This document shows, piece after piece, positions 5,330 to 17,096 of a stretch of 20,177 nt of DNA. The stretch comes from a virus, in the IMG/VR virus record IMGVR_UViG_3300042375_000551, positions 1 to 20,177 of that record; one strand, given 5' to 3'. The notes beneath the pieces are model-generated. The model was given only the letters and a program-made list of their open reading frames with translations. It did not search any database and was not told the origin of the DNA. Within the stretch, counting starts at the first letter, position 1. The number at the start of each line of letters is the position of its first letter. Made by a program: the position numbers and the translations under genes.

Positions 5330-5506
5330 ATGAAAGCAACCCCAATCGGAATGATCGAACTCGGAGCAAAAGTGTACGTCAAACCTGTAAACGCTTTTGG
5401 AGTTGTTGAAGACAACACAAACGGCAATTACCTAGTAGTTTTCGGCTCCGATTCTCTGGATGAGATTTTTGGAATCTACGAACGAAACGACCTTCGCTGC
5501 TACTAG
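5330..5506 (+). CDS. Small hypothetical protein, SH3/KOW-like beta pattern
   Basis: The protein has 58 residues and starts at ATG 5330. An in-frame GTG at 5312 would overlap the promoter-like box and was rejected. The sequence alternates short beta-strand-like pieces with turns (IELGAKVYV, FGVVEDNTNGNYLVVFG, IFGIYERNDLR), resembling a small barrel of SH3 or KOW type. That is an impression of pattern only. No Shine-Dalgarno precedes it; expression from leaderless promoter B is inferred. Function unknown. Confidence 0.6.
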   Translation: MKATPIGMIELGAKVYVKPVNAFGVVEDNTNGNYLVVFGSDSLDEIFGIYERNDLRCY

Positions 5507-5512
5507 GCCGAA

Positions 5513-5561
5513 ACGCCCCCCGGGGCGTCCACCCGTGACGCGGGTGCTGACGAGGCCGTCA
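5513..5561 (+). ncRNA. Three consecutive hairpins, structured leader or intergenic RNA
   Basis: Three stems follow one another: ACGCCCC/GGGGCGT (5513-5519 with 5522-5528), CACCCG/CGGGTG (5530-5535 with 5541-5546) and TGAC/GTCA (5548-5551 with 5558-5561). There is no T-run, so simple termination is unlikely. The array sits between the gene ending at 5506 and the conserved A/C-rich leader of the gene at 5589. Confidence 0.45.
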
Positions 5562-5563
5562 GA

Positions 5564-5593
5564 GTGAAACAACAAACCAAGAACCAAAATGAA
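5564..5593 (+). promoter_or_regulatory. Repeated A/C-rich translation leader, copy 1
   Basis: The 25 bases before the ATG at 5589 end in CAAACCAAGAACCAAA. Bases 6908-6937 match this 30-base stretch except at about three positions, with the same distance to the ATG. No Shine-Dalgarno is present. An A-rich initiation enhancer is the likely role. Confidence 0.5.
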
Positions 5594-16219: not shown

Positions 16220-16398
16220 AACCCATCGAACGCTTAGAAAACCATTACCTCATCGAGGCGCTCAAGATGCACCTGCAAGAGGCCAAGGCGCGCGCATTGC
16301 GAGCAGAGGCCAGGGCGGCAGCACTTGAGGGGCAGATGCGCCGAGAGGGCTGGACACAGGAGGACCTTGACAGTGTGCAGCCTAGTGTGCATCACTGA
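16216..16398 (+). CDS. Small Ala/Arg-rich helical hypothetical protein, 60 residues
   Basis: ATG 16216 overlaps the previous stop and follows ACAGGAGGCACTAAA, a nearly exact copy of the Shine-Dalgarno context of the previous gene. The product forms a long helix (LIEALKMHLQEAKARALRAEARAAALEGQMRREG) and ends in a short variable tail. Similarity to its neighbours is limited to style. It is the last gene before the structured non-coding stretch. Function unknown. Confidence 0.5.
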   Translation: MKPIERLENHYLIEALKMHLQEAKARALRAEARAAALEGQMRREGWTQEDLDSVQPSVHH

Positions 16399-16646
16399 TG
16401 GCCTACTTCCGCGACACCTGCGTGGCTTCGACCTTTTCGGGGCTAAAAGTGGTGCGACAGACTGGAGAGTCAGCCATGGTCGACAACTGACTTGTGAGTT
16501 GTGGGGAACGCAGTCCTTACCGGCGTGACAGTCGGGAGAGACCGGCACGAACTCGGCCAGAGTGTGCGAGTCCTGCCGCACACAAAACGATAGCGGGACT
16601 GGGAACGCCGCATGCTAGGCGTGACAGCCGGAGAGACGGCAACACA
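16399..16646 (+). ncRNA. Structured gene-free stretch with three copies of a hairpin motif
   Basis: No credible gene covers this DNA. The sequence GGYGYGACAG occurs at 16451, 16522 and 16618. Each copy is followed by a small hairpin with a GGAGAG-type loop: GACTG/CAGCC around GAGAGT (imperfect), GTCGG/CCGGC around GAGAGA, GCCG/CGGC around GAGAGA. Further hairpins lie at 16409-16425, 16483-16502 and 16562-16583 (seven pairs). It may be a structured RNA ending in the tRNA-like gene below, or DNA-level terminase binding sites. Confidence 0.5.
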
Positions 16647-16747
16647 TTCCCAGTAGCTCAGTCGGTAGAGCAGCGCTCCCTCAAGGCTAAGGGCCAAAAT
16701 GCTGGGACAAAGCGCAGGCCGTACAGTTCGAGTCTGTACCTGGGAGC
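16647..16747 (+). tRNA. tRNA-like gene with an oversized anticodon loop
   Basis: A seven-pair acceptor stem TTCCCAG (16647-16653) with CTGGGAG (16740-16746) is followed by TA and a normal D-arm GCTC/GAGC with AGTCGGTA loop. The anticodon stem GCGCT (16673-16677) with AGCGC (16711-16715) closes a loop of 33 bases instead of seven. The T-arm has the standard TTCGAGT loop but a six-pair stem (GTACAG/CTGTAC). No CCA is encoded and a T-run follows. A normal anticodon cannot be assigned; CTC is the nearest candidate but position 33 is C. Either a processed insertion-bearing tRNA or a tRNA mimic is possible. Confidence 0.5.
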
Positions 16748-16757
16748 CTTTTTCAAA

Positions 16758-17096
16758 ATGATTGACGACGCCGATTATTCCGCCGCCTGCGATGACCTAG
16801 CCGACCTTGGCCTGACCGAGGACCAGATCGACGACGTTTGGCGCTGGCACAGGGTCACAGCACGACGCCAGGCTCAGACGGCAGGAGGCGTGGCTGTCGT
16901 GCGCCTCTTGACGTACATGCTCACTGGACACAAGGACAGCAACCTGCACTTGCGACTTGTAGGGTTGGCCTTCGGTGTAGGCATGGGGCACATCACCGGG
17001 CACGAGCACCAGGCTGCCGCTGCGCACGCACTGGGGGTGAGTCGGCAAGCTGTGGCTGATGCTGGAGAGAGGGCCAGAAAAGCGATTCTGGGGTAG
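16758..17096 (+). CDS. Putative HTH-containing protein, 112 residues
   Basis: The chosen start is ATG 16758, just after the tRNA-like gene's T-run; a longer frame begins at 16494 but would read through the tRNA-like gene and the repeats. The N-terminal half is acidic and helical (DLADLGLTEDQIDDVWRWHRV). The C-terminal end (GHEHQAAAAHALGVSRQAVADAGERARK) has the helix-turn-helix pattern AAxxLGVSRQAVxxxxxRA. It could regulate the packaging operon or help terminase find DNA, given its place upstream of the small terminase gene. No family is recognised with certainty. Confidence 0.6.
   Translation: MIDDADYSAACDDLADLGLTEDQIDDVWRWHRVTARRQAQTAGGVAVVRLLTYMLTGHKDSNLHLRLVGLAFGVGMGHITGHEHQAAAAHALGVSRQAVADAGERARKAILG

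Follow-up and report, generated by a model that had tools for sequence, protein, structure and literature searches.

The window analysed here, the whole stretch of 20,177 nucleotides corresponding to positions 1 to 20,177 of the IMG/VR virus record IMGVR_UViG_3300042375_000551, carries a non-coding region in which three structured units lie in tandem ahead of a tRNA-like element, a conserved 112-aa ORF and, further downstream, terS (PHROGs terminase small subunit) and a GpA-type terL. The features referred to below, in window coordinates, are:

16399-16757, + strand: non-coding region with the array (359 nt), delimited from the ORF list, between a small ORF whose stop lies at 16398 and the conserved 112-aa ORF
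16413-16475, + strand: unit 1 (degenerate), whole, covariance model R1 match; R at 16413, P3 ACACC 16414-16418 with GGTGC 16451-16455, GACA 16456-16459, P4 16460-16464 with 16471-16475, loop GAGAGT
16477-16546, + strand: unit 2, whole, covariance model R1 match; 5' hairpin CAACT/AGTTG 16484-16501, P3 ACGC 16508-16511 with GCGT 16523-16526, GACA 16527-16530, P4 16531-16535 with 16542-16546, loop GAGAGA 16536-16541
16551-16640, + strand: unit 3, whole, covariance model R1 match, with pseudoknot covariation in relatives; 5' pseudoknot formed by the hairpin 16562-16568 with 16577-16583, whose 8-nt loop 16569-16576 pairs with 16593-16600; P3 ACGCC 16605-16609 with GGCGT 16618-16622, GACA 16623-16626, P4 16627-16630 with 16637-16640, loop GAGAGA 16631-16636
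16648-16748, + strand: tRNA-like element, 7 nt after P4 of unit 3; Rfam tRNA match, ARAGORN call with introns
16758-17096, + strand: 112-aa ORF downstream of the array
5506-5564: type II hammerhead ribozyme (RF02276), Rfam 39.4 bits, above the gathering score

The motif GGYGYGACAG matched the window exactly three times, at 16451, 16522 and 16618, always on the + strand and with start-to-start spacings of 71 and 96, just as the first-pass annotation had described; 0.27 matches were expected from dinucleotide shuffles, and three were reached in 1 of 100 shuffles. Each copy is followed on its 3' side by a hairpin, well formed in unit 2 (GTCGG-GAGAGA-CCGGC) and unit 3 (GCCG-GAGAGA-CGGC) and degenerate in unit 1 (GACTG-GAGAGT-CAGCC, imperfect), again in line with that annotation. 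The covariance-model search that it had proposed was carried out with a model trained on other phages (R1) and returned strong matches for unit 2 (42.9 bits, E=7.4e-10) and unit 3 (46.9 bits, E=7.3e-11) and a weak one for unit 1 (14.2 bits, E=0.013), these E-values being rough. The element extends beyond the motif, with an upstream P3 strand in every unit and a 5' pseudoknot in unit 3. The repeats are also present at the same place in close relatives, where unit 1 has intact counterparts (e.g. GGTGCGACAGCAGGAGAGACTGC); throughout this phage group the arrays comprise two to four units of differing type, reshuffled among relatives, with their position constant.

The earlier observation that the third unit runs into a tRNA-like gene was borne out by the Rfam tRNA match (32.2 bits over 16648-16745 in a local search, exceeding the gathering score), in which the acceptor, D and T arms fit the Rfam tRNA and the anticodon arm (16673-16715) has a loop of 33 nt. 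ARAGORN made no call without introns and called the element as i(36,26) once introns were allowed. The same tRNA-like module follows other units in three related contigs. The 112-aa ORF adjoins the array in 13 IMG/VR contigs, and its product matched no family in Pfam or PHROGs. Between this ORF and terS, six related contigs share one end, ...GAGGTCAAGGAC(G), at window position ~17159, which is the probable cos end of the phage group and lies ~520 bp downstream of the array and separate from it. Tandem short repeats of the TGTGCTATAGA / TGTGCGATAGA type were seen right after the 112-aa ORF in four contigs, beside the candidate cos end, and are more plausible as terminase binding sites than the RNA array is. 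Elsewhere in the window, the hammerhead ribozyme ends 24 nt before the ATG at 5589, a placement equivalent to that of the new element before genes, and positions 1-2935 contain two adjacent long ORFs, very rich in glycine runs and perhaps encoding tail-tip adhesins.

Further copies were retrieved mostly by sequence patterns. An IMG/VR search with the pattern GTGACAGNCNGGAGAGAC yielded at least 120 stretches versus 9 for a scrambled pattern of the same composition. A search of bacterial genomes with this pattern also gave many matches, those listed being a lower bound, and a second subtype with a GAAAGA loop proved equally common. Since most loci were fetched with such patterns, the retrieval itself accounts for part of the conservation of the pattern letters; redundancy was reduced with an identity cut-off of 72% across some 60-70 nt rather than by phylogeny, and gene calls in the metagenomic loci are mechanical. 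Comparison of the units with all 4,227 Rfam 15 models, in which the window and 34 other loci were scanned, gave no family match. No description of the motif was found in the literature, although an earlier one is possible, the search having covered few subscription papers.

The element is an apparently undescribed RNA family of hundreds of tailed phages and prophages, and its hosts are spread widely: the phages infect Proteobacteria, Bacteroidota and cyanobacteria, and the bacterial records come from Chloroflexota and other phyla. Carriers include Planktothrix phage Pra-JY27 (two units), Rhodobacter phage RcCWillis, Mannheimia phage 587AP2, Microcystis phage Mwe-JY26, Pseudomonas phages Cruim01 and Medea1, Cronobacter phage CS01, Stenotrophomonas phage Pokken, E. 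coli phage mEp390, Bacteroides phage BS-TP2 and Phaeobacter phage MD18. No copy was found in the scanned portions of the K-12 cryptic prophages Rac (part) and Qin (most). A distinct family of the element was observed at seven loci in genomes of Anaerolineae (Chloroflexota), with up to six copies per genome.

The core of the element consists of UGACA followed by P4, a hairpin of 4-5 bp whose loop reads GAGAGA or GAAAGA. In the subtype found in the window, UGACA is preceded by a P3 helix of exactly 5 bp, ACNNN/NNNGU, which ends on the U of UGACA. Among pattern hits in which the outer stem had not been demanded, the full 5-bp P4 was present in 113 of 121 non-redundant copies; in the GAAAGA subtype all five pairs formed in 107/109, with only two of the five free on both sides in the pattern used. 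The least biased set was picked by the P3 strands alone (GCGACACCTGC...GTGGTGTGACA), with nothing demanded downstream. This set contained GAGAGA in 74 of 89 cases, combined with 27 different stem pairs, and a perfect 4- or 5-bp stem in fixed register in 37 of its 63 distinct tails, against a shuffled mean of 0.8. An ungapped alignment of the 28 tails of one register, for which pairing was no criterion, contained 38 two-sided compensatory cells versus 11 after shuffling, and the pairing collapsed when the register was slid. Covariation on an alignment of sequences that had been chosen for pairing was regarded as circular and was not counted as evidence.

For P3, a Watson-Crick partner of 5 bp was found upstream in 137/217 copies versus 28 in shuffles, the count dropping to 14 (6 in shuffles) when a sixth pair was demanded; in the GAAAGA subtype the helix is weaker and shifted upstream by one base (33/120 versus 12). 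The likeness of each unit to the 5' half of a tRNA, remarked on in the first-pass annotation, proved superficial, the P3 strand pairing with the upstream segment and not with the downstream one. Further upstream, the pseudoknot helix P1 is enriched at a score of at least 14 (25% versus 11%) and is not universal among members, and the 5' half of the element as a whole is very variable across copies. The pseudoknot of unit 3, a 7-bp hairpin with an 8-nt loop pairing with 16593-16600, changes on both sides of its helix in relatives (AGUCCUGC/GCGGGACU, AGUCUUGC/GCAAGACU, AGUGUUGC/GCAACACU). Comparison of the copies shows an element that works at the RNA level, as judged from its covarying P3 and P4 helices, its invariant (U)GACA junction and its GARAGA loop. 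A compact core, covarying helices and invariant unpaired bases are also traits expected of a small self-cleaving ribozyme (about 50-80 nt).

Placement was assessed relative to tRNAs and to genes. A tRNA or tRNA-like element lies within 220 nt downstream of 36 of the 345 non-redundant copies, and in 21 of these 36 it starts exactly 3-7 nt past P4 (mirror control, 0). Counted by locus, a tRNA within 300 nt on the same strand accompanies 17 of 107 phage loci versus 1.2% at random, and the independent GAAAGA subtype behaves alike (17/109 loci versus 1.5%), so that the tRNA adjacency of unit 3 is general in the family; where tRNAs lie upstream of the element, their distances are loose. A start codon with a Shine-Dalgarno sequence follows within 80 nt in 83 of 344 copies, mostly at 20-30 nt, compared with 16 in the mirror control. 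These statistics show that the element sits on the sense strand, directly 5' of another RNA, often in tandem (tandem units in 71/344 copies), and most contigs have a single locus of one to five units. The genes downstream are diverse (terS, portal, head-tail adaptors, ParB, HNH and methyltransferases, among others), which argues for a generic element and led to rejection of a gene-specific riboswitch; from phage to phage the element differs widely in its distance from terL and in its strand relative to that gene, and a late-operon leader was rejected on this ground. Free-standing copies, in a non-coding stretch with an apparent terminator and no same-strand gene downstream, occur in Acinetobacter phage Alexa and Brevundimonas phage Bajun. 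The element of Rhodobacter phage RcCWillis abuts the 3' end of the integrase gene on the other strand, and an integrase gene stands beside the element in two isolates. Hammerheads co-occur in 3 of 72 element contigs, a figure without a background rate for comparison and so unusable as an argument for ribozyme nature.

As a separate observation, unrelated phages have, immediately behind the element, tRNA-like genes whose anticodon loop is enlarged by 5-40 nt (window 16673-16715; L265 2026-2133; L117; L401 2674-2786), and these look like a recurring tRNA mimic that is perhaps non-decoding. In E. coli prophages the element, or a diverged version, was found within longer non-coding regions, one of which contains a 113-nt tRNA-Gly annotated as pseudogenic. 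DNA resembling one of these regions was detected in 1,555 of 5,426 complete E. coli genomes (about 29%), in most of which only parts of the query matched. In the E. coli E2348/69 prophage (L401 2121-2993), ~870 nt of non-coding sequence between terminase and portal, on the strand opposite the late genes, hold several structured modules, a tRNA-Gly-like gene and a terminator. Two lambdoid prophage loci (L400 2330-3313, and L135 from mEp390) have ~1 kb of untranslated sequence after the repressor gene, with further repeated module types that include a hairpin of ~75 nt, GAAAGCGC...GCGCTTTC, common to the E2348/69 region.

The strongest functional clue is that, on the sense strand, the next RNA starts at a fixed distance from the element, because of which the element is taken to mark a 5' boundary. 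The combination of an invariant junction and purine loop with freely varying stems, in hosts of very different phyla, suggests RNA catalysis or a universal partner, and for this reason a cis-acting boundary or maturation element is ranked first, tentatively and with a probability a little short of even. The element would fold during transcription, with P3, the GACA junction and the docked GARAGA loop forming a compact core that would separate the upstream transcript from the downstream one and leave P4 to cap the new 5' end. Self-cleavage within GACA would be the likeliest way of achieving this and is the most likely single mechanism, although taken by itself it is doubtful; alternatively, a universal host factor may cleave or protect the RNA. 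In the window, the element would thereby delimit both the untranslated leader and the tRNA-like RNA that precede the 112-aa ORF. It is conceivable, with similar reservation, that the family is a new class of small self-cleaving ribozymes, present in tailed phages of many phyla and cutting before tRNAs, tRNA-likes and genes so as to leave a hairpin-capped 5' end. Counting against a 5'-boundary element are its restriction to one locus in most phages, the free-standing copies of Alexa and Bajun, the placement in RcCWillis and the variable 5' half, and tandem arrays of two to five units are unusual for ribozymes.

The main rival, which we consider somewhat unlikely, sees in the element the conserved 3' portion of free phage non-coding RNAs that act on their own as scaffolds or oligomers, as suspected for GOLLD and ROOL, the downstream tRNA or tRNA-like serving as an RNase P site that makes the 3' end. 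Mammalian MALAT1-mascRNA offers a comparison for a 3' end made by RNase P at a tRNA-like structure. The exact spacing of 3-7 nt to tRNA 5' ends would suit such a processing event as well, and many of the adjacent tRNA-likes have enlarged anticodon loops and presumably cannot decode normally; the long non-coding hubs of E. coli prophages, Alexa and Bajun, each a set of structured modules, and the variable 5' half joined to a conserved 3' half, likewise fit, GOLLD and ROOL also being phage RNAs near tRNA islands (PMC12286853). However, minimal copies occur in short gaps 20-30 nt before start codons with no tRNA after them, and the Rfam scans matched neither GOLLD nor ROOL nor any further model. 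A role like that of HK022 put, in which the RNA would bind RNA polymerase and keep it from pausing or terminating in leaders and tRNA arrays, is considered improbable. RNA polymerase is universal, and the element is found in tRNA arrays and often in long untranslated leaders at operon starts, as in mEp390 and E. coli prophages (after the repressor gene), Mannheimia phage 587AP2 and Planktothrix phage Pra-JY27; copies are, however, also situated mid-array between tRNAs and right before single genes, an intrinsic terminator lies close behind the element in Alexa and E. coli E2348/69, and the described putL fold, compared at the level of its published structure, is unlike P3/GACA/P4.

The functional proposals of the first-pass annotation fared less well than its description of the array. 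A decoy or sponge for an RNA-binding protein, whether CsrA or another, would profit from tandem units raising the dose, such as occur in 71/344 copies, and from the invariant purine loop, but it is held to be quite improbable: most phages have a single unit, and CsrA itself was matched in 11 of 25 carrier genomes and in none of the other 14. The GGA that had been placed in an apical loop is not in an open, unpaired ANGGA loop, its first G belonging to the loop-closing pair and the preceding bases covarying as a stem. Least probable by far, and hardly credible, is a site acting at the DNA level, be it a cosB or pac site for terminase, an operator for the nearby HTH protein, a TTGACA-like promoter -35 box or a recombination site. 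The array does lie upstream of terS and terL here, TGACA does resemble a -35 box and an integrase gene is adjacent in two isolates; against this, both helices undergo compensatory changes and loop lengths are variable. Terminase and HTH sites are unsupported because the stems covary as RNA, and moreover the element has no fixed position beside the packaging end and terminase genes across phages, the candidate cos end is apart from the array, and hundreds of phages with quite different neighbour genes carry the element. As for a promoter, the covarying P4 stands where the spacer would be, nothing resembling a -10 box comes next, and tRNAs start 3-7 nt after P4. What stands of the earlier interpretation is repeated structured units running into a tRNA-like gene; its CsrA decoy, terminase (cosB/pac) and HTH-site readings do not.

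One compact RNA core is common to hundreds of diverse phages, with precise spacing to tRNAs and start codons, and is not listed in Rfam. If the cis-acting element does cut itself, it would be both a new class of ribozyme and a naturally occurring insulator part; should it instead be a module of large phage RNAs, then tRNA islands, long leaders and prophage non-coding regions would be tied to one testable family.

Several known systems resemble the element in part. CsrA decoys of the CsrB/RsmZ type also consist of repeated hairpins with GGA at the loop, but the GGA of the new element is not exposed and its hosts include genomes without CsrA. The Pistol ribozyme is similar in general layout, with one hairpin that pairs through its loop with the strand immediately 3', followed by a junction and another hairpin; it has no core sequence in common with the element, which gave no Rfam match. 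The type II hammerhead (RF02276), whose copy in the window precedes a start codon by 24 nt as the element does, has a different core, and the array units did not match the hammerhead model. The HK022 put RNA, with two stem-loops and a triple helix and known from a few lambdoid phages (PMC9378689), is likewise a short cis RNA in untranslated phage leaders and differs in its described structure. GOLLD and ROOL are very large RNAs, many GOLLD members exceeding 800 nt, and GOLLD has a conserved 3' and a variable 5' region (PMC12286853); the new element is comparable in being a phage and prophage non-coding RNA near tRNA islands with (as in GOLLD) a conserved 3' and a variable 5' part, whereas its core spans about 40-60 nt, has no Rfam match and is also found in short 5' UTRs. 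The theta ribozymes are HDV-like, phage tRNA-associated and located at the tRNA 3' end, where their cleavage site lies (PMC10879173). The position of the new element is not compatible with cleavage within ~5 nt of a tRNA 3' end, the criterion for a theta or HDV-like ribozyme. Like the theta ribozymes, some isolated copies of which are near ORFs (PMC10879173), it is a compact pseudoknotted phage RNA directly beside tRNA genes, but it has no Rfam match, adopts another fold and lies 3-7 nt before the tRNA 5' end.
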